A stretch of 64,000 nt of DNA from Sulfurimonas sediminis (GTDB taxonomy: Bacteria > Campylobacterota > Campylobacteria > Campylobacterales > Sulfurimonadaceae), in contig NZ_CP041235.1 of NCBI RefSeq assembly GCF_014905115.1, positions 2,046,001 to 2,110,000 of the forward strand. Direction: 5' to 3'. Position numbers and translations under genes: made by a program. The notes under the pieces are model-generated. The model had not been told where the DNA came from. It saw nothing but the letters and a program-made list of their open reading frames with translations, and ran no database searches. Of this stretch, positions 49,709 to 62,338 are shown in pieces (within the stretch, counting starts at the first letter, position 1; each line of letters opens with the position of its first letter).

Positions 49709-52700
49709 ATGCAAATAGGACTAAAAAACAGACTTCGACTTATTAGTTTATTACCGATTATTATTTTAATTTCTATTACAAGTTATTTTGTATATAACTC
49801 ATACGAAAACTATAAAGCGGCGCAACTTCTCCAGGATAAGCTTTCCACAAACAGGCAACTCAACAACCTTCTGAGAAATGTTTCCCGGGAAAGAGGTATG
49901 ACCGTAATGTACCTTGGTAATTCCTCACCAAATACATTAAAATCACTCTTAAAGCAGAGAAAGATTGTTGACAAACAGGAAAAACTCTATTTTCAACAGC
50001 TACAGGCACTTTCACAAAAAGACACGGCATTAAAAAATGCGATGCAAAGTATAAAACATGCCAGAACATTGGTTGACGCACATAAAATAAACTTTGAAGA
50101 TATATATACCAAAGTATACGGCAAAGCAGAGCAGATAATTATTAAACAACTCGAAACCATTACATCCCACCAACTTGATAATAAAATCAACACATATGCA
50201 TCGATTTATATTTCACTGGTCCGTGCAAATGCCTACACCGCAGATGAACGTGACTTCATCTCTTATACACTTGCCCGCTCAACAGAAATGGACGAAGAAG
50301 AGATTAATCAATGGCTCTCCTTAATAGCAAAAGCAGATGCCATCGATTTCTATAACATTAAAGACAAAAAACTTGAAACCAAGCTGAATGAATTGTTTAA
50401 AAGTGATGATGCTCTTGAACTCTTTGATGACCTTAACTCAGAACGTGCTTCCATTTTAATTGCTGCAGCAAGCGGAGAGTATGAAACAAACCCGGGTGTC
50501 TGGTTTGCCATGCTTTCAGAAAAAAGCAACCTTATTTCAGAGGGAGAAAATGTTGTTCTGAGTGCCATGGACAGCAGAGCCGTTCAGGTAAAAACAGAAG
50601 CTTTACAGTTTTTGACCATTACATTGACAATTTGGCTGATTTCAATCATATTGGCAGTTTTAGGCTTTTTGCTCTCTAATGAAATTGCCAGAAATATTCA
50701 CAACCTTGAAGGTGTCCTCAGAAAAGTGGCAGAAGACACAAATGAGAGTGACAAAGCAATTGAGATCAATCTTCATACAGCCAAAGGAACAGAAGAGGCC
50801 TACAGTCTTTTGGAAAAAATTATTGAGCAGACGAAAAGAGATAAAGAAGCAGCACAGGAAGCAAGTGAAGCAAAATCAATGTTCCTTGCAAACATGTCAC
50901 ATGAAATTCGTACACCGCTCAACGGAATCGTTGGTTTTACAGAACTTCTTAAAGATACAGGACTCAAAGAAGAGCAACAGGAGTTTGTTGAAATTATCGA
51001 AAAATCTTCAGAAAACCTCCTTGAAATTATCAACAATATTCTTGACCTTTCAAAAATCGAGAGTAATAAACTTGAAATTGAAGATGTTATCTTTAATCCT
51101 ATAGAAGAGTTTGAAAGTGCCGTTGATGTATATGCTGTCCGTGCAAGTGAAAAGCATATTGATCTGGGATGTTTTATTGACCCTGAACTTGAGCAGCCAC
51201 TCAAAGGTGACCCGACAAAAATCAAAGAAGTTCTCATCAACCTGCTCTCAAATGCAGTGAAGTTTACAAGCAGTTCCGGAGCTATCAATGTCGATATCAG
51301 AAAACTGCAATCACCGCAGGAAGGAACAACACGTATCAGATTTGAAGTGCAAGACAGCGGTATCGGTGTTACAAGCGAACAAAAATCCAGAATTTTTGAA
51401 GCTTTTTCACAAGCAGATACATCCATTACACGTAAATACGGCGGTACAGGTCTTGGTCTTACAATTTCTGCGCGTTTTATTGAACTGATGGGAGGACAGC
51501 TTGATCTGCACAGTGAGCCGGGAGAAGGAACAACTTTCTTCTTTACACTTGATTTTGAAGAGATAGAAGTAATCAGTGAAAGTGCCAAAGAACAATATCT
51601 GGGAATCAATGCTTTAATTTTAGAGTCTACTCATAAAACAAAAAGACAAGACACCTATCTCAAAGAGTATCTTGATTTCTATGGAGTAAGTTATACAACA
51701 TTTAAAAATAAAAATGAAATTGAAACGCTCCAGCGACAAATAAATTATGATATGCTTTTTGTAGATTATGAATATGCAAATGAAGAAGAGTTAAAAGCAT
51801 ACAGCACTCTTCCGCAAAAGCTGATACTTCTTACAAAATCTTATTTTATGAGAAAAATCGACTCTATGGGTATAGAGATATTTAAAACCATATATGAGCC
51901 ATTAAACAATACCAAACTAAAAGCAGCACTTGAAAATTACCAAAGTCAAAATTTTACAGCACCAAAAGTAAAACCAACTTCAAACAAAGTCTTTACAGTC
52001 GGTTCATCTAAATTTGCGGCAAAAGTACTTGTTGCAGAAGACAATATAATCAACCAGAAGCTGATAAAACGGACACTTGAAGACCTGGGGCTCACTGTTG
52101 GTATCGCATCCAATGGGCTTGAAGCATTCCAAAAACGCAAAGACAATAACTATGATCTGATTTTTATGGATATCCAGATGCCTTTCCTTGATGGTATAGA
52201 AGCGACACAGGAGATTCTTGAATATGAAGAGGTATACAACCAGCCCCATGTTCCGATAATCGCTTTAACGGCAAATGCACTCAAGGGGGACCGTGAAAGA
52301 TTTTTAGCAGCCGGACTTGACGAATATACAACAAAACCATTAGTACGTGAAGAGATCATAACACTGCTGAATCATTTTTTAGCAGACCACATTGTGGATG
52401 TAGATGAAGCAAAGGCAGAAGAAGAGAAAACAAAAAAAGTAGAGCAGCAGAAAGAAGAAGCAAAAGAGCAGAAAAAAGAAGAAAAAGCGGTGCAGGAAGA
52501 AGTTCCGGTAAAATACAAAGCTGATATTCTTCTTGCTAAAAAAAGTCCCTTTGAAACAAAGCTTTTTACAAAAATTCTCAGTTCGCTTGGATATACTTAC
52601 GAAGTCATAGACAACATAGATGAATTGCAAAAGAAAATTGAAGAGGAGAGCTATAAACTTATTTTATTTGACAAAGAGACTGAAACTTTAGACTTGAAAG

Positions 52701-52876
52701 ATTTCGCCCACTCAGTCAAAGAGAAAAGTCAGAAAAACAATCTTTCCAGCTACCTGGTAATGATTGTAGATCCTGCTGTACCTGTAAGTGAAGAAGATTC
52801 GAAATATGTAGATGAAACGATTAAAAACATTATAAACAAAGACTTGCTGAGACTTGTTATAGAAAAATTTATTTAA
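49709..52876 (+). CDS. hybrid histidine kinase with NIT-type sensor
   Basis: 1055-residue membrane kinase. Order: transmembrane segment (about 12-30), extracytoplasmic NIT-like domain (about 40-295; SRERGMTVMYLG as in nitrate- and nitrite-sensing NIT domains), second transmembrane segment (about 297-325), HAMP-like stretch, HisKA with phospho-His398 (MSHEIRTPLNG), HATPase with GTGLGLTI, a receiver-like domain without a clear phospho-Asp (about 630-730), a canonical receiver with Asp821 (FMDIQMPFLDG), an E/K-rich linker, and a third receiver-like domain (about 930-1050). The ligand is inferred from family only. Confidence 0.88.
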   Translation: MQIGLKNRLRLISLLPIIILISITSYFVYNSYENYKAAQLLQDKLSTNRQLNNLLRNVSRERGMTVMYLGNSSPNTLKSLLKQRKIVDKQEKLYFQQLQALSQKDTALKNAMQSIKHARTLVDAHKINFEDIYTKVYGKAEQIIIKQLETITSHQLDNKINTYASIYISLVRANAYTADERDFISYTLARSTEMDEEEINQWLSLIAKADAIDFYNIKDKKLETKLNELFKSDDALELFDDLNSERASILIAAASGEYETNPGVWFAMLSEKSNLISEGENVVLSAMDSRAVQVKTEALQFLTITLTIWLISIILAVLGFLLSNEIARNIHNLEGVLRKVAEDTNESDKAIEINLHTAKGTEEAYSLLEKIIEQTKRDKEAAQEASEAKSMFLANMSHEIRTPLNGIVGFTELLKDTGLKEEQQEFVEIIEKSSENLLEIINNILDLSKIESNKLEIEDVIFNPIEEFESAVDVYAVRASEKHIDLGCFIDPELEQPLKGDPTKIKEVLINLLSNAVKFTSSSGAINVDIRKLQSPQEGTTRIRFEVQDSGIGVTSEQKSRIFEAFSQADTSITRKYGGTGLGLTISARFIELMGGQLDLHSEPGEGTTFFFTLDFEEIEVISESAKEQYLGINALILESTHKTKRQDTYLKEYLDFYGVSYTTFKNKNEIETLQRQINYDMLFVDYEYANEEELKAYSTLPQKLILLTKSYFMRKIDSMGIEIFKTIYEPLNNTKLKAALENYQSQNFTAPKVKPTSNKVFTVGSSKFAAKVLVAEDNIINQKLIKRTLEDLGLTVGIASNGLEAFQKRKDNNYDLIFMDIQMPFLDGIEATQEILEYEEVYNQPHVPIIALTANALKGDRERFLAAGLDEYTTKPLVREEIITLLNHFLADHIVDVDEAKAEEEKTKKVEQQKEEAKEQKKEEKAVQEEVPVKYKADILLAKKSPFETKLFTKILSSLGYTYEVIDNIDELQKKIEEESYKLILFDKETETLDLKDFAHSVKEKSQKNNLSSYLVMIVDPAVPVSEEDSKYVDETIKNIINKDLLRLVIEKFI

Positions 52877-53286: not shown

Positions 53287-56004
53287 TTAAACGGTCTCTA
53301 TCTTAATGGTATCTGCCAAGATATAGCAGATATAGCCACGCACTTCATCTCCCGTTATCTCTTTGACTGCTTTTACATAGTATCGAACCTGCTTGCGATG
53401 CTCTTCGGTAAAATGCATCGCACTTTTATAGTCTATCACACTCCACTCTCCTTTTTCATGCTTGACCAACAAATCAAGATAACGCAGATTGTTTTTATAG
53501 CGCAGGGCCTTTTCTTTGTAACATACTCCCCGGGTCAAAGTCAAAAACTCCGGTGTAGTGACAAGCCTCTCTATTCTCTGCTGTATATCATCGACCTCTG
53601 ATTCTGTGAGCATAAAGCCATATTTGTTCAGCATCATATCTTTGGCATCCAGCAGTGCTTCTTGTGTAAACTCCTGCATCATTTCCAGGGTATAGTGCAA
53701 GGCAATACCAAAATTAATAGCTTGCAAATCCTCTTCATTTTGTCTTTCTAATGCCAACAAATCACTCTGTGTCCCGTAATAGATATTTTCAAACGAAAGT
53801 TTTTTATGCACCTGCGGTACATTTCTGGCTTTACATGTAGAGCGTAGTTCTCCGAAGCTTTGAGGTTGCAAATCCAGCAGTGCAAACATGGAATCTTTTG
53901 GTTTTGCAAGTATGATCAGATTTTCTCTTGCTCTGGTAAAAGCAACATACAGAGCATTTAAACTGTCTTCTCGTATAAGCTCTTTTTCTTTGGCAAGAGC
54001 ATAGGCATAATCATGGTCAATAAGCTCTCTGTTTTTTGTTCTCAGGTAAAGATTTTGCAGTTTGATACCGTCATAATTGTAAATAATGGCATCTCTTGGG
54101 GCAGGAGCTTTCTTCAGTCTGTCCATGACAATGACATGCTCATACTCCAGACCTTTTGATTTATGTACCGTTAAAACCCTCACTCCGCTGATGTCAGCTG
54201 CCGCTGCAGAAGTATCAAGTCTTTCATATTCAAACAAAAGCGCTTCAATATCTGCATATTTGGATACAGCACTTAAAAAGCGAATAAGATGAAAATCATC
54301 CTGAAAAAGCCGGTACTCCTCTATACATCTCTTCACAACATCCACAAGTCTGACACTGTTAAAATCTACATTGGCAACAGCCCTGACCTCCTGATTTATC
54401 AAAGCAAAAAAATTCTGTCTATAAATCTCTTCTCTGAAATAGAGATATTTCAAGTACTCCAAAACAGCCTTGACACTTCTTTGGTTGATGAGCTTCGTGG
54501 TTGTTTCTGTGACAACCTCTATATTTTGTGCGTCAAGTCTGTTTTTAATGACCTGTCCGTCGCTGTTGGTTGCACATAAAACGGCAATGTCATTCACATC
54601 TGCGCCCAGATCTATCAAGCGCTTTACCTGCTCAACCAGTGCATCCAGAAGCTCCTCGTCTGCAATCACTTCGACAAAACCGCCCTGTGCCTCTTTGCGA
54701 ACAAGCTGAGGGGTGTAGTTTTTTATTTTATCCGCAAAGACTCTGTTGACAAACTCTATGACCTCTTTTTGCGAACGGTAATTTGTCAAGAGTTTCTTCA
54801 CCTCGGTACGGTGCTCTTTTGCCACCTCCCCAAAAAGTGCCGACACACCTCCTCTAAAACGGTAAATAGACTGTTTCACATCCCCCACAAAGAAAAAACT
54901 TCCCTCACTGCAGACACCCGCACCCGAAGTTATCTCTGTAATAAGCGGTTTTAAAATCTCATACTGCAGCACGCTGGTATCTTGAAACTCATCAAGCAGC
55001 ATGTGCTCTATCGTTGCATCGAGGCGAAAGTATAAAAATTCACTTTCATTAAGACGGTGCAAAATTTCATACACCAGAAGCGTCACATCAGAAAAGCTGA
55101 GTTCCCCCTCATCAACATAGAGTGCTTTTTTTGCTTTTTTGTAAAGTTCTACAAGTTCATTCAAAGCATAAAAGAAGTTCTGCTCTTTTGCCTTTGCATG
55201 TGCTTTGATGGCATTTTGGATTACATGTAACTGTGCATCCATCTCAGGTGTAAAACATTTTTTAAAGACCCAGTAGTTCAGACTCTCTTTATAGACCCAT
55301 GTTTTTGCTTTGAGTGCTTCAAAATTTTGAGCAACAACGGCTTTTTGCAGTGTCGCCGATGCCTCTTTGCAGTTTTTTACAATATTTTGCAACAAAGAGA
55401 GCCCCTGCATCGCCTCCTCTTCATACGCCTGTGTCGATTTTTTTTGAAACTTCAGATGAGAAAGTTCCTCTTTTTTAAGATAAAAATCATCCAGCAGTGC
55501 AAAAATATCACTGACACGTTTGTTTGATTCCAAAGAGAGATTGATAAGCGTCTTGCGTTTGTTGGCAACACTCACCTCTTTTAAAAAACGAGACATCAGT
55601 TTGACTTCATGCTGGGCATTCGCCGTTGAAAAATCGGGCATCAAAGAGGCATACAGAGAAAATTTTCTCAAAATCTGCGCAAAAAAGCTGTCTATGGTCA
55701 TAATCTTTGTATGGGCATTCAAAAACTCGGCCAAAATTTGCGACCGTTTTGCCAGAATCTCTTTTTCGGACATCCCGCACTCTTTGGCAATCTCATACAG
55801 TTCCATACGTGATTCCAAGGCCTGCAGTGTCTCAACAATCCGCTCACTCATCTCGGCAGCCGCTTTGTTTGTAAAAGTAAGCGCCAAAACCTTCGCAGGC
55901 TCCGCCCCTTTAAAAAGCAGAGCAAGATAGCGCACAACAAGCATAAAAGTCTTCCCACTCCCCGCACTTGCTTCGTAGGCAAGATTATTTATAAACTTAG
56001 ACAT
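53287..56004 (-). CDS. addA: AddA-like helicase-nuclease
   Basis: UvrD-type helicase with a C-terminal nuclease domain; with AddB it resects double-strand ends and degrades linear foreign DNA. The 905 residues have Walker A ASAGSGKTFML (residues 11-21), DEFQD near residue 340, motif V/VI blocks (GVRVLTVHKSKGLEYEHV; YVAFTRARENL), and a PD-(D/E)XK nuclease with VIDYKSA (about residue 870). Its ATG at 56004 overlaps the hepT stop by 8 bases (ATGTCTAA). In this window the partner addB lies 3.5 kb away, separated by defence genes. TTACATGTAA at 55221 lies within. Confidence 0.92.
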   Translation of the reverse strand: MSKFINNLAYEASAGSGKTFMLVVRYLALLFKGAEPAKVLALTFTNKAAAEMSERIVETLQALESRMELYEIAKECGMSEKEILAKRSQILAEFLNAHTKIMTIDSFFAQILRKFSLYASLMPDFSTANAQHEVKLMSRFLKEVSVANKRKTLINLSLESNKRVSDIFALLDDFYLKKEELSHLKFQKKSTQAYEEEAMQGLSLLQNIVKNCKEASATLQKAVVAQNFEALKAKTWVYKESLNYWVFKKCFTPEMDAQLHVIQNAIKAHAKAKEQNFFYALNELVELYKKAKKALYVDEGELSFSDVTLLVYEILHRLNESEFLYFRLDATIEHMLLDEFQDTSVLQYEILKPLITEITSGAGVCSEGSFFFVGDVKQSIYRFRGGVSALFGEVAKEHRTEVKKLLTNYRSQKEVIEFVNRVFADKIKNYTPQLVRKEAQGGFVEVIADEELLDALVEQVKRLIDLGADVNDIAVLCATNSDGQVIKNRLDAQNIEVVTETTTKLINQRSVKAVLEYLKYLYFREEIYRQNFFALINQEVRAVANVDFNSVRLVDVVKRCIEEYRLFQDDFHLIRFLSAVSKYADIEALLFEYERLDTSAAAADISGVRVLTVHKSKGLEYEHVIVMDRLKKAPAPRDAIIYNYDGIKLQNLYLRTKNRELIDHDYAYALAKEKELIREDSLNALYVAFTRARENLIILAKPKDSMFALLDLQPQSFGELRSTCKARNVPQVHKKLSFENIYYGTQSDLLALERQNEEDLQAINFGIALHYTLEMMQEFTQEALLDAKDMMLNKYGFMLTESEVDDIQQRIERLVTTPEFLTLTRGVCYKEKALRYKNNLRYLDLLVKHEKGEWSVIDYKSAMHFTEEHRKQVRYYVKAVKEITGDEVRGYICYILADTIKIETV

Positions 56005-56377
56005 GAAGATCTTTTATTATTTCAACAGTTGCTTCTAAAAGATTTTGTATGTCATTTTGACAAATTTCAAATATTACCTCCGCATCCAAATCAAAATAGT
56101 GATGAGATAAGACATCTCGCACCCCCTTTACCTGTCTCCACGGAATATTTGGATACTGAGGCAATATTTTTCCCTCAGACAATTTATCAATATTTTTAAA
56201 GCCCTCTCCAATAGCAATTAGTCTCATTGAGATACTATCAAGTTTTAAAAGTCCCTCATCGTTTTTTAAAAAATCATCACTTGAATTTATTCTTTGGCAT
56301 CTTTGAATAATGAGTTCTAATGATATTCGTATATCATCAAGTGTGGACAAAATCATTCTTTGTTTATCACTAAGCAT
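55997..56377 (-). CDS. hepT: HepT-like toxin (DUF86, HEPN family)
   Basis: Toxin half of a HepT/MntA system: a HEPN ribonuclease. The 126-residue helical protein has the active motif R-x4-H-x-Y at R87, H92 and Y94 in RDVLSHHYF. It overlaps mntA by 8 bases upstream and addA by 8 bases downstream, so translation of the toxin and AddA are linked. In described pairs MntA adenylates a Tyr near this motif and blocks activity; Y94 is the candidate. Confidence 0.9.
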   Translation of the reverse strand: MLSDKQRMILSTLDDIRISLELIIQRCQRINSSDDFLKNDEGLLKLDSISMRLIAIGEGFKNIDKLSEGKILPQYPNIPWRQVKGVRDVLSHHYFDLDAEVIFEICQNDIQNLLEATVEIIKDLHV

Positions 56378-56657
56378 AAATCAAATCTTTTTGAATCATT
56401 TCTAAGAAAAAAGGTTTCATATTTTTATGTTCACGGACAATATCAACTTTTGTATGCAAATCATCTTCTATCTGCTCTTTTATAGCAATCATATCAAACA
56501 TATTAGGTCTCATTTTTACAAAAATATCTATATCACTCTGCGGTGTTGCTTCATCTCTTGCATAACTTCCGAACAACCCAATTTTTTCAACCGCATATTG
56601 TTTATGAAACTCGGGATAATGTTCTTTTAAATAATTAAGTACATCACGTTTTGTCAT
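56370..56657 (-). CDS. mntA: MntA-like nucleotidyltransferase antitoxin
   Basis: Minimal nucleotidyltransferase of 95 residues with the full GS-x10-DxD motif, G30-S31 to D42-x-D44 (GSYARDEATPQSDID), and a further acidic residue later (VDIVRE). It precedes hepT and should neutralise it by AMP transfer, the mechanism known for this pair. It sits between mcrB (67 bases upstream) and hepT. Confidence 0.9.
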   Translation of the reverse strand: MTKRDVLNYLKEHYPEFHKQYAVEKIGLFGSYARDEATPQSDIDIFVKMRPNMFDMIAIKEQIEDDLHTKVDIVREHKNMKPFFLEMIQKDLIYA

Positions 56658-56723
56658 AATAATATACCTCTTTTTGCTTTCTTAAGTGTATTATAGCATT
56701 TCTGTAAATAACAAACTTAGCCA

Positions 56724-58316
56724 TTATTTTTCTCTCAAGACCTCTTTCATTATCTCATCTGCACTTTTTTCATCGGCATAAAAATACTCTTCTAAAAGCG
56801 GTTTTATTTTATACTCTTTTACAAATATTAAATCTTCATCATTTTGTACATTCATAAAATAACTATGCCCAAGTTGGTAATCTTCACTTAACTTTGCAGT
56901 AATGTAATTGTTTAGTTCCTGCATACATTCTCTAGCACTGTCGTTTTTAACTAATTCAAGATTTGGTTTCATCTTTAAAAATGTAAATCTTCGTCTCAGT
57001 GCTATATCTATTGTCGCTATTGATTTATCAGTTGAATTCATCGTTGCAATAATATAAAGATTTGAAGGCACTTTAAATTTCTCCTTAGAGTATGGAAGTG
57101 TCACTTCATAAATATCTCTCTTATCTTCTTCTATAAGCGTGATAAGTTCACCAAAAATTTTAGATATATTCCCTCTGTTTATTTCGTCTATTACTATGTA
57201 AAAATTCTTTTCATTTTTTACATCAACTCGATTTTTCTTAATTATCTCAACAATTTTTTTGGCTAATGGATAATAAAAATCTGATAAAGAAATAGTATCT
57301 TTTTTTACATCTAAATTTTTAATATCTACTGGTTTATGAATCTTATCCCGCAACATTGCATTCACCACGGTTCCTAAATCATTCTTTTTAACATATTGAG
57401 AATCTTTAGCATTTTCAGATTGAAGTAAAATTGTTTTTTCTTTTACATCATGAATGATAATACTAGCACCCGTCACTTTTTTTAATGTTTCTAATTCTTC
57501 ATTTATAAAACTCGTTCTAAATATATCGTACGCTTCATCAAAAGAGATATGTTTAAGCTCTTTTTCTTTCACTTGATTTATAGCTTTAGCTGACACTCTT
57601 TTAAATATTCCATCTTCTAACTCAATATTTCCATTTTCATTCGGTCGGAAACCTTCTATAAAATCTTCATAAGAATAACTCTGATGAAATGTTACAAATT
57701 CTACTCTTTTTTCGTCTTGTATGGTTTGAAAAATTTCATCATTTAAACTCACTTTTTCATTTTGTGAAATAGTGTCAAATATCTCTTTTTGACTTTTTCC
57801 CTCTTCAATCATAGAAATTAGATTTTGGTAATTATGAGTTTTACCAACACCTGGAGCACCATAAAGGATTATGTTTTTAATATTTAATATATTTTTATCT
57901 TCTCTAATTAAATCTTTTTCTTCCTCATTAATACTGTCTATTTCTATCTCATAGTGCAATTCATTTTTTGCAAATTCTAAAAATCTTTTTTTATTTCCTT
58001 CTTTAATTTTTCCACTCTTGGAATCTTGCCAATCTCCACCCCAACCTTGATTTATATATACTTCATCATTTGCTAGCTTAACAATCTCATTATCTTTTAT
58101 AAAAAATCTTTTTTCAGGATCTTTAATATTTTGTTTCCAAATCTCAAAATCTTGTTTATTTTTAATAATTCCTCTTGATCCACCTATTTCATCTCGAAAT
58201 ACTTTTTTTAAATCAATATATGAAATATTTGGATGTTCACTTACATATTTTTTAACAATTTCTATAACCAATCTATTTAACGCATTAATGCGTTTTCCAT
58301 TAAAATAATATGCCAT
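56724..58316 (-). CDS. mcrB: McrB-like AAA+ GTPase of a McrBC restriction system
   Basis: Motor subunit of a modification-dependent restriction enzyme. AAA+ domain (about residues 145-510): Walker A GAPGVGKT (153-160), Walker B VIDEINRGNISKIFGE, the nucleotide sensor MNSTDKS as in the McrB-specific MNxxDRS, and arginine finger ALRRRF. The N-terminal 125 residues hold no DNA-recognition domain I can name (no SRA or EVE pattern) and should set substrate choice. It starts inside the mcrC 3' end (17-base overlap), the reverse of the E. coli mcrB-mcrC order. Confidence 0.9.
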   Translation of the reverse strand: MAYYFNGKRINALNRLVIEIVKKYVSEHPNISYIDLKKVFRDEIGGSRGIIKNKQDFEIWKQNIKDPEKRFFIKDNEIVKLANDEVYINQGWGGDWQDSKSGKIKEGNKKRFLEFAKNELHYEIEIDSINEEEKDLIREDKNILNIKNIILYGAPGVGKTHNYQNLISMIEEGKSQKEIFDTISQNEKVSLNDEIFQTIQDEKRVEFVTFHQSYSYEDFIEGFRPNENGNIELEDGIFKRVSAKAINQVKEKELKHISFDEAYDIFRTSFINEELETLKKVTGASIIIHDVKEKTILLQSENAKDSQYVKKNDLGTVVNAMLRDKIHKPVDIKNLDVKKDTISLSDFYYPLAKKIVEIIKKNRVDVKNEKNFYIVIDEINRGNISKIFGELITLIEEDKRDIYEVTLPYSKEKFKVPSNLYIIATMNSTDKSIATIDIALRRRFTFLKMKPNLELVKNDSARECMQELNNYITAKLSEDYQLGHSYFMNVQNDEDLIFVKEYKIKPLLEEYFYADEKSADEIMKEVLREK

Positions 58317-59451
58317 CTAAAATATCCTTTACTCTCAATTTAATTTCTTTTATATACTCACCATACCCACACCCATCAAACCCTAAATCCAAACTTTTTA
58401 TCTTCATATTAATCCCGTTTTCATTGACACCCAGAACCAAATCATTATCAAAATTCTTTAAATGTTTTGGATACAATAGCATTGTATTTTTTATTTTATA
58501 ATTATTGCCATAAACATACATCTGAAACTTATCATCTCTTTTAATGTCTCTTAGTGCGTTTAACTTCTTATATTTTGTATCTATTATCAAGTTACCTACA
58601 ATGATGTCAGGTTTTAAAGTCAAATCTTTATAGACATCATAACTTTGTAATTGTGTGTTTAGCTCACGCGCTTTTATCATTTTACCAACAAATCGTTCAA
58701 AAAGTATATTCATATCAAATAAAAAGGCAAAACTTTTTTTATCTTTTTCAAAAAGTGGAATTAATTGGCGTAATAATAAAAGTGCAAACTCAAAATTCGC
58801 TTTAAACCTGTTATTGAGTCGATTAAAGTTTATATCTAATCTATTTATATCAAACTGTTTCACTTGAACTTCGTCAAGTACAAGTTCACACTGTTTTAGC
58901 AACTTTTTATTTTTAGCAAATGATAGTAAACTTTTAATGGCATACAAGAAAAATTGATTAAGTCTGTTGTCCATACTAAACTCATCATATTCACAATAAA
59001 TTTTGTTTTTTACAAAGTTATATTTCAGATTTTCATTTATGAGATACTTTCCCCGTAATGTCGTTAAGTTCTCTTTTTCGGTAACATACTCCTTATAAAT
59101 CCCTGCCTGAAATTCTTTAAATAGCCCTCGTGCAAAGAGTTGTATAAAAACTTCTAAAATATTGTGTTTTTCATTTTTACAAGAAGCAATATTTTCATTT
59201 TCTAACTTTATATCATACACATACATCAACATATAAATAAAAATATCTAAATTAATTTCATCATCTTTTTTGATAATTTTAGGCAATAAATAAAAATCTT
59301 CATCCCCAAAATTCAGTATCCCGCAATATTGTTGTGATTTTAAGATATTCCAATCAAGTTTAAAATATTTATGAAGTTTAGTGGTATTAACGATGTGGCT
59401 TTTCAGTTCTTTATTTTCAATTTCACTATATTCATAAATAATATTTTGCAT
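58300..59451 (-). CDS. mcrC: McrC-like nuclease of a McrBC restriction system
   Basis: Nuclease partner of McrB. The 383-residue protein has the McrC-type N-terminal part and a C-terminal PD-(D/E)XK site: LKPDIIVGN then IIDTKYKKL (about residues 278-295). Base composition is visibly AT-richer than addB and addA on its sides, and no TTACATGTAA palindrome is present, both hinting at separate arrival. It starts 11 bases past the addB stop. Confidence 0.9.
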   Translation of the reverse strand: MQNIIYEYSEIENKELKSHIVNTTKLHKYFKLDWNILKSQQYCGILNFGDEDFYLLPKIIKKDDEINLDIFIYMLMYVYDIKLENENIASCKNEKHNILEVFIQLFARGLFKEFQAGIYKEYVTEKENLTTLRGKYLINENLKYNFVKNKIYCEYDEFSMDNRLNQFFLYAIKSLLSFAKNKKLLKQCELVLDEVQVKQFDINRLDINFNRLNNRFKANFEFALLLLRQLIPLFEKDKKSFAFLFDMNILFERFVGKMIKARELNTQLQSYDVYKDLTLKPDIIVGNLIIDTKYKKLNALRDIKRDDKFQMYVYGNNYKIKNTMLLYPKHLKNFDNDLVLGVNENGINMKIKSLDLGFDGCGYGEYIKEIKLRVKDILDGILF

Positions 59452-59462
59452 TGTACTTACAA

Positions 59463-61808
59463 TTAATCTCTATTGCACATAATGGCATATTCACAAAACT
59501 GGCAGGGTTTTGTCTCTTCACATTTTTCAAAGTTGACGGACTCTATGGCAAGGAGATCTTTGATGTGAGATTTTAGTATTTCTGTTTTTTCTTGCAAAAA
59601 TGCTTCCGGGATGATTTGGCACTCTTTCAAATCATAAAAACCGCAACGCTCGACATTTCCAAAACCACCGGCTAAAAGAGCATAAAATTCAAGCTGAAAG
59701 TCCGTTGCCTCTGTATAGTTGTTTTTATTGTAAAGCGTGTAGGCACCTGTTTTGTAGTCAAGGACCTCGATAAGATTCTCTTTTTTGTCTATTCTGTCGA
59801 TTTGACCGACAATTTTCATGCCTGCAAAATTCGTTTCCAAAAGCTCTTCTGTTTTAAATACTCTCCAGCCTTTTTCAAACCGTTCTGTTTCAGCCTCTGC
59901 AAAAGGCTCCAGACGCTTTTTTTGCATCGCAACAAGATACTTGTCAAGCTCACTCTCCCCGCAAAATTCATCCAGAGCTTTGTTGATATCTTTTTTGAGT
60001 TTTTCGGCATCCGTGTAAAAATTCTGTTTTTCATAGACTGCTTTTAGGGCACTGTGCACAACATTGCCTATTTCGTACTCCTGAGGCATATCTTTTGGAA
60101 TTTCATGGTTTTTTATATGTTGAATGTATTTATAATAATATTTACGCTTACATGTAAGGAAGGTTTTCAGCCTGCTGGCAGAGAGTGCTACATTTTTAAA
60201 ACTGTACTCTTGCACTATCTCCTCTTCTTTTAGCAAACCTGATTCTCTTCGCTGAAAGAGAATTTCAGCGTAGTCCAGCTCGCTGTGCTCGTTTTTCTGT
60301 GTAATGCCGAGTTGTTTTAAAAACCTCGAACCGCTGCTCTCACTTGAGTTGACATAGGCGATTGCCACCTCTTTTGAGCGTGATATCAGCATTTGGTAGT
60401 AATGTTTTTGCAGGCTTTCTCTGTCTCCCATCGTCGGCAAAGAGGCGGCTTTTCGTATCTGTGTATTTAAAAACATATCTTTGTCACTGCGTTTTGGGAC
60501 ATTTTTATCATCAAAATCTATAATAATCACCGCATCAAAATGGACACTTCTTGTCTCAAGTACCCCCATTACCGTCACTTTGCCCCCACGGACATCATCC
60601 ACAGTTCTCAAAGCCAGACGCTGCATAAAAATATTTAAGAGTGATTTTACGCCCATATCCTGCATAAAAGGCAAAAGTTTTTCTATTTTATGCAACTCCT
60701 CGTTCAATATTTTCTTCTCCTGTCTGTTGGTAAAAAAACCAGCCACTTCCTGCATTTTTTGTATAAAATCAATCTCTGAAACTTTTTTATAATAGAGTCC
60801 GTGCAGAAGTAAAAAAAGTTCATCCCCCACTCTTTGCATACGCGCCTCATTCTCTTTGGAGTCCTGTTCTATGGCGTTTAATGTTGCTTCGATTTTTTTA
60901 TAGACTCCGGAGTGACGAAACGACTCTCCCATTGCAAAGTTCAGATTACATTTTTGATCAAAACTTTTGAGTATCGGTGCTGCGGTTTCATTGGGCAAAA
61001 TAACGGCTATGTTTTGGGGGTTGTAGCCTTTTTGTACAAATTCATAAATTTTCTGCTGCACGAAGGCAACCTGCAAAAGAGATTCGCTGAAACTGTTACA
61101 TGTAAGCTGATAATTTGTAGGGATTTTTTCTTTTGTGAGTGTTTTGATGCTGTTGAAATCGAGTTCATATATGAATCCGGCTTCCAGTGCAAACCCAAGT
61201 TCACCCAGTTTGTTTTGCATCTTTTCATTAAAACGCGTCGCCCAGAAACGAAGTTTTATGGACATAAACGACTTCGCCTTTTGCAGCAGTTCAAGCTCAA
61301 AGTTTGTCAGATGCCCGTCTAAATAAATCGTCACATTTTGATGTGTTTTTGCATAGCTAGCATTAAATTCATAAAGTTTGGGCAGAAATATTCTATCGAG
61401 CAGTTTTTTTTCATTGCACAGCTTTTCATAGCGTTTGTAAAGCTCTTGCAAAATGGCAATATGCTCTTCATACTCTGCATAAACATCGGCACTGCTTAAC
61501 AGATTGATATCATAAAGTTCTGCACTCAGTTCTTCGTAAAATTTAAAGATATACGAAGAATTTTTGGTAAAGGTAAAAAAATTACGCTCAATCTGAAGAT
61601 TTGCAAAGCCTTTAAAATCCGATGCTTCAAGCAAAAGCAGTATTCTGCTCTCATCATCTATAAATTTATAGCCTTTGACAAGCGTAAGTTTGGCGATAAA
61701 ATCGCTCATGGTAATGTAGTTGGGTAAAAAGAGCGTCTGCTCCTGTGTAGCAAGCTGCTCGTGACGAATAGCACGAGCAGTCGGAAGGACTATGGTTGTC
61801 TCCTCCAT
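59463..61808 (-). CDS. addB: AddB-like nuclease with Fe-S cluster
   Basis: Second subunit of the AddAB recombination nuclease. The 781-residue protein has a degenerate helicase fold and a C-terminal PD-(D/E)XK nuclease (VLDYKTG, about residue 685). Four cysteines for a [4Fe-4S] cluster lie in FLTCKRKYYY (about residue 560) and the end CQFCEYAIMC (C-x2-C-x5-C). The N-terminal P-loop is not evident (PTARAIRHEQ), as is usual for AddB. It starts 2 bases after the FixH gene. TTACATGTAA copies lie at 60148 (at the first cluster Cys) and 61096. Confidence 0.9.
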   Translation of the reverse strand: MEETTIVLPTARAIRHEQLATQEQTLFLPNYITMSDFIAKLTLVKGYKFIDDESRILLLLEASDFKGFANLQIERNFFTFTKNSSYIFKFYEELSAELYDINLLSSADVYAEYEEHIAILQELYKRYEKLCNEKKLLDRIFLPKLYEFNASYAKTHQNVTIYLDGHLTNFELELLQKAKSFMSIKLRFWATRFNEKMQNKLGELGFALEAGFIYELDFNSIKTLTKEKIPTNYQLTCNSFSESLLQVAFVQQKIYEFVQKGYNPQNIAVILPNETAAPILKSFDQKCNLNFAMGESFRHSGVYKKIEATLNAIEQDSKENEARMQRVGDELFLLLHGLYYKKVSEIDFIQKMQEVAGFFTNRQEKKILNEELHKIEKLLPFMQDMGVKSLLNIFMQRLALRTVDDVRGGKVTVMGVLETRSVHFDAVIIIDFDDKNVPKRSDKDMFLNTQIRKAASLPTMGDRESLQKHYYQMLISRSKEVAIAYVNSSESSGSRFLKQLGITQKNEHSELDYAEILFQRRESGLLKEEEIVQEYSFKNVALSASRLKTFLTCKRKYYYKYIQHIKNHEIPKDMPQEYEIGNVVHSALKAVYEKQNFYTDAEKLKKDINKALDEFCGESELDKYLVAMQKKRLEPFAEAETERFEKGWRVFKTEELLETNFAGMKIVGQIDRIDKKENLIEVLDYKTGAYTLYNKNNYTEATDFQLEFYALLAGGFGNVERCGFYDLKECQIIPEAFLQEKTEILKSHIKDLLAIESVNFEKCEETKPCQFCEYAIMCNRD

Positions 61809-61810
61809 AT

Positions 61811-62338
61811 TTAGTACTGTGAAGCTTCCTGGATGCTTCTGTCGTTTATGATGCGGGTATCTGTTTTGATAGCATAAAATCTACTCTTGTCACCGACATC
61901 AACTTTTAACAGCAGGTTCCAAACACCTGTTTTTGGAAATTTCACATCATGAAACACATAAAGACCCTCTTCAAAGAGAGGATCTTTGAGCGTTTTTGTG
62001 TAGGTCTCAACTTCAGGACGGCTGATTTCCAAAATCATTTTTGCGCCCTTGACGGCTTTGCCCTCTTTCGTTGTAAGGGCATACTTCACATCCGAACCAT
62101 TTTCTGAAATCCTGTCTGAAACAAATTTCAGTTTATATGCTTTGTCAAAAGCTATTCTCTGTTTAATCAGTTTGTTTGCATTTGCATCTGCATCCTGGTA
62201 TTTTGTCATATAATCATCACTTGGCTGTATGTCGGCCTTGCTTGTTTCTATAATTGTCCATACGCATAAGCCAAAAACACCTGTAATTGCCAGCCCTATT
62301 GCATAAGGCCAGAGTCTACCACTTTTTATAATGCTCAT
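61811..62338 (-). CDS. FixH-family cbb3 oxidase accessory protein
   Basis: 175-residue protein with one N-terminal transmembrane segment (about residues 10-30, WPYAIGLAITGVFGLCVWTI) and a periplasmic FixH-like beta domain (KGAKMILEISRP and FPKTGVWNLLLKVDV). FixH proteins act with copper handling or assembly of cbb3 cytochrome oxidase. It overlaps the TPM-like gene upstream by 23 bases and is followed closely by addB. Confidence 0.88.
   Translation of the reverse strand: MSIIKSGRLWPYAIGLAITGVFGLCVWTIIETSKADIQPSDDYMTKYQDADANANKLIKQRIAFDKAYKLKFVSDRISENGSDVKYALTTKEGKAVKGAKMILEISRPEVETYTKTLKDPLFEEGLYVFHDVKFPKTGVWNLLLKVDVGDKSRFYAIKTDTRIINDRSIQEASQY

Follow-up and report, generated by a model that had tools for sequence, protein, structure and literature searches.

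A probable hotspot for restriction and toxin-antitoxin cassettes between the addB and addA genes of Sulfurimonas

The junction between addB and addA in the genus Sulfurimonas is, in our assessment, quite probably a recurrent, high-turnover insertion hotspot within a core operon. It would be one of at least two such junctions in these genomes (the other being hypD-hypE, with a site between murG and dedA as a likely third), which appear to draw on a shared pool of low-GC cassettes that lie in the orientation of the operon. In the 64,000-nucleotide stretch of Sulfurimonas sediminis DNA that we analysed (the window; contig NZ_CP041235.1), the hotspot presently holds, on the best reading of the genes there, a type IV McrBC restriction system together with a type VII HepT/MntA toxin-antitoxin pair.

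Results

A low-GC insert separates addB from addA in the window

The ORF list and the sequence give the gene order addB-mcrC-mcrB-mntA-hepT-addA, all on the minus strand. They thereby confirm the layout of the original prediction, which had described six genes in one direction, with the coordinates of addB and addA and with spacings of 11 and 8 bases. The upstream flank, addB (59463-61808; PDDEXK_1, E 2e-36), ends with codons for Cys-Asn-Arg-Asp followed by TAA, and 11 bases separate this stop from the ATG of mcrC (58300-59451), which overlaps mcrB (56724-58316) by 17 bases. After a spacer of 66 bases (56658-56723) come mntA (56370-56657) and hepT (55997-56377), which overlap by 8 bases, and the stop of hepT in turn overlaps by 8 bases (ATGTCTAA) the start of the downstream flank, addA (53287-56004), whose product matches the RecB-like helicase model NF010485 with 1047 bits (cut-off 650). 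(Beyond addA, on the opposite strand, lies a gene for a hybrid sensor kinase with a nitrate/nitrite-sensing NIT domain, at 49709-52876.) The insert of 3.46 kb has a GC content of 27.3%, against 39.2% and 41.0% in the adjoining 900 bases of addB and addA, respectively; in windows of 500 bases the values are 25-30% for the insert and 36-46% for addA and addB. We considered insertion by target duplication as a route; a search of the insert borders found no direct repeats that bracket the insert.

Long addB-addA gaps are common in the genus

The original prediction described addB and addA as usually lying side by side and proposed a comparison of their spacing in relatives as a check. We searched for AddA and AddB in 149 relatives and then in all 135 genomes of the genus, and found both genes on the same contig and strand in 96 of the 135 (the 39 genomes without a linked pair, mostly fragmented drafts, are outside the counts). 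Among the 96 linked pairs, the gap was within 20 bp in 47, between 21 and 500 bp in 10, and greater than 500 bp in 39, with a maximum of 20.2 kb. Thus the expected adjacency holds for about half of the genus. As a control we used the genes for the alpha and beta subunits of an enzyme that NCBIfam identifies as a 2-oxoacid:ferredoxin oxidoreductase. Wherever these two share a contig (104 genomes), 12-21 bp separate them; gaps greater than 500 bp were therefore found in 39/96 cases at addB-addA and in 0/104 at this control, which is a single gene pair (Fisher p 2.4e-15). In the 71 genomes measurable at both sites, a long gap was present at addB-addA in 32 and at the control in none. A further comparison used 40 loci of 20 kb around addB-addA, a set enriched for inserts. 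Here 14 other conserved co-directional gene pairs gave 230 instances, of which 4 had an insert greater than 700 bp; in three of these 4 the insert lay immediately upstream of addB. The junction between addB and the YtkA-domain gene (61811-62338, minus strand, 2 bases upstream of addB in the window) carried such an insert in 3 of 32 loci. The addB-addA junction combines conserved flanks, variable cargo and some empty relatives with an insertion rate above that of these comparison junctions. In other families of the order, a gap greater than 500 bp was found in 3 of 29 genomes with the two genes within 5 kb (Fisher p 0.003 versus the genus), which argues that insertion at addB-addA is mainly a trait of the genus Sulfurimonas.

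The cargo is variable, and much of it is defence-related

We classed 22 of the 39 inserts as restriction, toxin-antitoxin or candidate defence cargo and 17 as other, a division of our own for which representatives were scanned and the remainder placed by sequence likeness. Five of the 22 assignments are soft, comprising a lone PDDEXK_2 protein (G049), lone methyltransferases (G073, G168) and remnants accompanied by a Y1 transposase (G052, G068). Apart from mcrC-mcrB, the defence-class cargo includes KAP NTPases (PDC-S49), MqsRA, C5- and N6-methyltransferases with HATPase proteins, AAA_14/DUF4143 proteins (PDC-S01), an AAA protein with its partner (PDC-M62A/B), YhcG (PDC-S02), ORF6N (PDC-S05), GmrSD, a type IIG enzyme, Bro-N (PDC-S13), FRG (PDC-S15) and PemK. 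Together with PDC-S09, the class matched by MntA of the window, the PADLOC candidate classes at the junction include PDC-S01, S02, S05, S09, S13, S15, S49 and M62. Other occupied junctions carry what resemble, by sequence likeness, genes for NO reductase, zinc transport, potassium uptake and adhesin export. With 17 of the 39 inserts outside the defence class in our reading, the junction cannot be called a locus dedicated to defence. MntA/HepT is present among the 39 occupied junctions only in S. sediminis (G000) and its sister G011.

Two properties set the defence-class inserts apart. The GC content was below that of the flanks in all 22 (means of 29.1% and 36.7%), compared with 12 of the 17 other inserts, and among their ORFs of at least 100 amino acids, 59 of 60 were co-directional with addB and addA, compared with 34 of 50 in the other inserts (Fisher p 8e-6). 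Integrase or recombinase families were absent from the 40 junction proteins that we scanned with Pfam; a Y1 transposase was identified in G068 by Pfam and in G052 by likeness.

Two further kinds of protein were seen at the junction. A small VF530 (PF09905) protein is often encoded directly before addA, either alone or after defence cargo (L018, L019, L020, L011, L022, L027-L030, L129, L131 and others), and also occurs in inserts of the hyp region. Unassigned proteins, one of 463 amino acids (G086) and others of a 239-amino-acid type (G007, G149, G174), are encoded at L012:1043-2434, L031:927-1646, L123 and L124; those that were scanned matched no Pfam family.

The same cassettes occur at hypD-hypE and beside murG

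A search for McrC gave 55 places in 47 of the 135 genus genomes. We examined 20 copies of the window type (377-409 amino acids, 157-191 bits; that of G157 is cut by a contig end), plus two others (G072, G188). Seven of the 20 are at addB-addA, eight at hypD-hypE, three between murG and a DedA-like gene, and two elsewhere. Note that four of the seven lie between the two genes (G000, G047, G153 and G185), whereas the other three (G078, G157 and G192) were seen next to addB where the contig stops, with no addA on the other side within that contig. The hyp copies were confirmed by position against the places of HypD and HypE; in the loci scanned, HypC, HypD, HypE and MurG scored above their NCBIfam cut-offs, and the DedA-like proteins at the murG sites scored below theirs.

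The hypD-hypE gap exceeded 500 bp in 31 of 69 genomes, a figure that overstates foreign insertion because the gaps include ordinary genes (SixA-, AKR-, CHAD- and Fic-like). We fetched 28 of these 31 long junctions (leaving out G040, G075 and G178); of 20 further hyp junctions, 11 matched defence-class cargo of addB-addA by blastp, with up to 92% identity, and PDC-M62, YhcG and KAP also occur there. Occupancy of the two sites was not significantly associated (14 genomes with both occupied, 12 with addB-addA only, 12 with hyp only and 19 with neither; p 0.29). On inspection, hypD-hypE appears as variable as addB-addA, with cargo common to both (L103, L105, L108, L109, L113, L115, L116, L120, L236-L255).

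The association of McrBC with toxin-antitoxin genes is also found away from addB-addA. Toxin-antitoxin genes were present in the same insert in 12 of the 20 window-type McrC loci (eight by Pfam and four by likeness), and McrC occurs together with an NTase/HepT-like pair away from addB-addA in at least G056 and G068. At the murG/DedA-like sites of three genomes (L106, L107, L111), McrBC is accompanied by NTase/HepT-like or Phd/ParE pairs. Across the loci, then, one McrBC family is seen with toxin-antitoxin partners of changing type, and the McrB proteins appear highly dissimilar in their N-terminal parts. The genome of S. sediminis contains nine HepT-like (PF01934) matches, of which one alone is at addB-addA.

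Cassettes have been exchanged between sites and partly lost

We built a tree of 79 rows from the C-terminal part of AddB and the N-terminal part of AddA (four branches are long, and the G162 row is misframed). On this tree the presence of any insert requires at least 23 changes, and that of McrC seven changes for nine rows, counts that cannot separate gain from loss. Sister species differ in occupancy (G055 is occupied and G032 is empty) and also in cargo. Label shuffles gave little sign that defence cargo clusters on this tree, a result that fits rapid turnover and also poor resolution. Copies from the two sites interleave in a tree of McrC: one clade (100/100) unites the McrC of the window with five copies from hyp, and another (100/99) contains three addB-addA copies along with two from hyp. 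McrC of the window is 72-75% identical to the five hyp copies of its clade and 63-65% identical to the five full-length addB-addA copies. We also considered a single ancestral insertion of McrBC; McrC needs seven changes for nine rows, and the addB-addA copies form no clade.

Partial loss can be read directly in G011, the nearest relative, whose AddB is 96% identical to that of the window. In this genome about 2.5 kb of mcrC-mcrB is gone, with remnants left, while the preceding sequence, mntA (two amino acid changes) and hepT (four amino acid changes) have been kept. The first bases of the insert are common to G047 and G052, and likewise to G002, G005 and G171.

Expression signals at the junction

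A consensus scan found no terminator-like sites on the minus strand between 56005 and 59462, and one at the end of addA, a terminator-like hairpin at the addA stop (53289-53269) that is the likely transcript end. Coupled expression, which the original prediction had offered beside the guarding of AddAB, is plausible because the genes are on one strand, the junctions are short or overlapping and no internal terminator-like site was found on that strand. The spacer upstream of mntA contains a perfect extended -10 sequence (TGCTATAAT, 56690-56698), also present in G011, that is a possible separate promoter; such motifs occur in the window no more often than by chance (6 observed, 3.8 expected). 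A sigma-70 promoter scan was uninformative (39 observed, 37.9 expected).

In the 25 empty sites that we read, the end of addB is rich in purines, frequently with GGGAGAGAG or a similar sequence, and the addB stop codon in many cases overlaps the start of addA or directly abuts it (TAATG, TAGTG, TGATG). Of the 33 occupied sites that have a co-directional ORF, 12 have the start of the first such ORF no more than 25 bases from the final sense codon of addB. In the window we saw no purine run before addA, just the overlap with hepT, and so we only infer that translation of addA may be coupled to that of hepT.

McrBC and HepT/MntA of the window match their families but score below the equivalog cut-offs

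The window McrC matches PF10117 with 181.6 bits (cut-off 23.9; E 2.4e-53), resembles the solved McrC 6ut5_G (E 3.6e-24) and contains a PDII...DTKYK stretch, which we take to be the PD-(D/E)XK core residues of a predicted type IV restriction nuclease subunit. McrB scores above the AAA_5 cut-off, as expected of the AAA+ NTPase subunit, and resembles the solved structures 6ut3 (E 1.1e-52) and E. coli McrB 6hz4 (E 2e-36); a Pfam scan matched no family to its N-terminal part (about residues 1-130). Both proteins miss the NCBIfam cut-offs for the E. coli-type equivalogs (129.1 of 637 bits for McrB and 79.1 of 338 for McrC). On these scores the window McrBC belongs to a distant branch and is no ortholog of the E. 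coli-type proteins, and its family membership suggests that it would restrict modified DNA.

The hepT product, a predicted HEPN RNase-like toxin, matches PF01934 (E 2.4e-18), and that of mntA, a minimal nucleotidyltransferase and predicted type VII antitoxin, matches Polbeta/NTP_transf_2. HepT carries the RX4HXY motif (RDVLSHHY) and MntA the GSX10DXD motif (GSYARDEATPQSDID), as these are defined in the motif description of PMC7641770. MntA is related to PDB structure 1wot (E 1.7e-4), a search for PDB relatives of HepT at E 0.001 found none, and both miss the NCBIfam equivalog cut-offs (33.5 and 46 bits versus 60). By analogy with the account of HepT adenylylation in the same source, MntA of the window may adenylylate HepT.

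Discussion

We propose that restriction, toxin-antitoxin and candidate defence genes, along with some metabolic cargo, would lodge co-directionally at the junction and then be lost quickly. Transcription may run from addB through the cassette into addA, with translation of addA possibly coupled to that of hepT via the 8-base overlap. McrB would recognise modified foreign DNA and drive cutting by McrC, and the broken ends might be consumed by AddAB and other exonucleases, much as RecBCD acts after McrBC cuts in E. coli. Adenylylation by MntA would hold the HepT RNase inactive, and the pair may resist deletion of the cassette. A more specific version, which we put forward tentatively and regard as rather doubtful, is that these are integrase-free cassettes that ride on the operon and land at tightly coupled operon junctions. 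A ribosome-binding purine run in the last codons of the upstream host gene would drive their first gene, and their last gene would re-initiate the downstream host gene via the 8-base overlap, making AddA translation dependent on the cassette. A swappable toxin-antitoxin pair would block loss, and cassettes would move among a few operon junctions through homologous exchange, either of the flanks or between cassettes that resemble each other.

The setting of McrBC within addB-addA might instead reflect a functional partnership, in which McrBC and other cutters are kept beside AddAB so that breaks are degraded or repaired and co-expression tunes cutting to end-processing. In E. coli, according to the relevant portion of PMC2614495, DNA broken by McrBC is then degraded by RecBCD, and at low methylation the breaks are repaired by RecBCD and RecA, which would suit such an arrangement. 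Many cargoes of addB-addA are predicted DNA cutters (McrBC, GmrSD, the type IIG enzyme, YhcG and the AAA protein with HNH of PDC-M62), and seven of the 20 window-type McrC copies are found there. However, the same families are as frequent in the hydrogenase-maturation operon at hypD-hypE (eight of the 20 McrC copies), which points to a preference for a type of site rather than for AddAB, and RNA toxins, transporters and respiratory genes use the same slot. We therefore rejected partnership with AddAB as the main explanation, and consider it improbable. The preferred reading, a hotspot, is also challenged by the view that insertion happened only a few times, long ago, and that vertical inheritance with loss in many lineages followed. 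The blindness of our change counts to the direction of change, and the first insert bases held in common within two groups of genomes, would allow this view. Nevertheless, differences in cargo between sister species, the interleaving of addB-addA and hyp copies of McrC in the starred clades, and the sharply lower GC content of every defence-class insert make it very unlikely.

The guarding of AddAB, as suggested in the original prediction, would mean that inhibition of AddAB, for instance by a phage inhibitor, releases the toxicity of HepT. Guarding of RecBCD by other systems is known, and the overlap of hepT with addA could allow AddA output to track hepT translation. Yet HepT has a dedicated neutraliser in MntA, whose motif is intact; NTase/HepT-like pairs occur at hyp and murG sites without AddAB; and MntA/HepT is confined to two of the 39 occupied addB-addA junctions examined. 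A guard would be expected only together with addB-addA, and the same gene families are found at unlinked sites (McrC at hypD-hypE in eight genomes and beside murG in three), a result that the original prediction had itself named as refuting its interpretation; the cargo of the junction in relatives is often unrelated. The guard was rejected on this basis and appears extremely unlikely; coupled expression is the part of the earlier interpretation that stands as plausible.

Accounts of defence hotspots usually place them on mobile elements or in the spaces that separate transcription units. Here the site is inside the operon of a two-subunit enzyme, is occupied in about 40% of measurable species and has cargo in common with a hydrogenase operon. 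The addB-addA junction may therefore offer a simple system in which to study how defence genes spread, apparently without an integrase, and how they gain expression, and the several PADLOC candidate classes present make it a practical hunting ground for new defence families. It also urges caution, as an operon neighbourhood is not the same as a functional partnership; in this case the neighbour seems to serve as a landing site. Our literature search, in which most matches were judged by their listing, found, among the matches listed, no paper on defence genes inside the addB-addA or hyp operons of the genus Sulfurimonas.

Restriction-modification systems have reportedly been described as mobile by the Kobayashi laboratory, including cases of insertion with long target duplication. 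The window resembles those systems in that restriction genes are found among host genes, apparently without a dedicated integrase, and differs from the long-target-duplication insertions in that its insert is not flanked by a direct repeat. With McrBC of E. coli and Thermococcus gammatolerans it shares an AAA+ McrB and a PD-(D/E)XK McrC; it differs in that mcrC is 5' of mcrB, the N-terminus of McrB is without a Pfam match and the scores fall far below the NCBIfam cut-offs for the E. coli-type proteins. The HepT/MntA pair agrees with the type VII system, so far as PMC7641770 details it on these points, in that mntA is 5' of and overlaps hepT, both motifs are present and a PF01934 protein is paired with an NTase, and departs from it in falling below the equivalog cut-offs and in its place inside addB-addA. 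The adjoining of restriction and toxin genes recalls Makarova et al. 2012 (PMC3506569, in its passages on such genes), from which our case differs in that a single McrBC family is found with complete toxin-antitoxin pairs whose type varies. Finally, like the defence-island hotspots between core genes of E. coli (PMC10121019, in its passages on such sites), the junction has conserved flanks, variable defence cargo and many empty strains. In those passages mobile elements with integrases or recombinases are the usual case, and the word operon is absent from the main text, whereas in Sulfurimonas the slot separates the genes for two subunits within a single operon, the cargo is co-directional and the 40 scanned proteins are without an integrase or recombinase.
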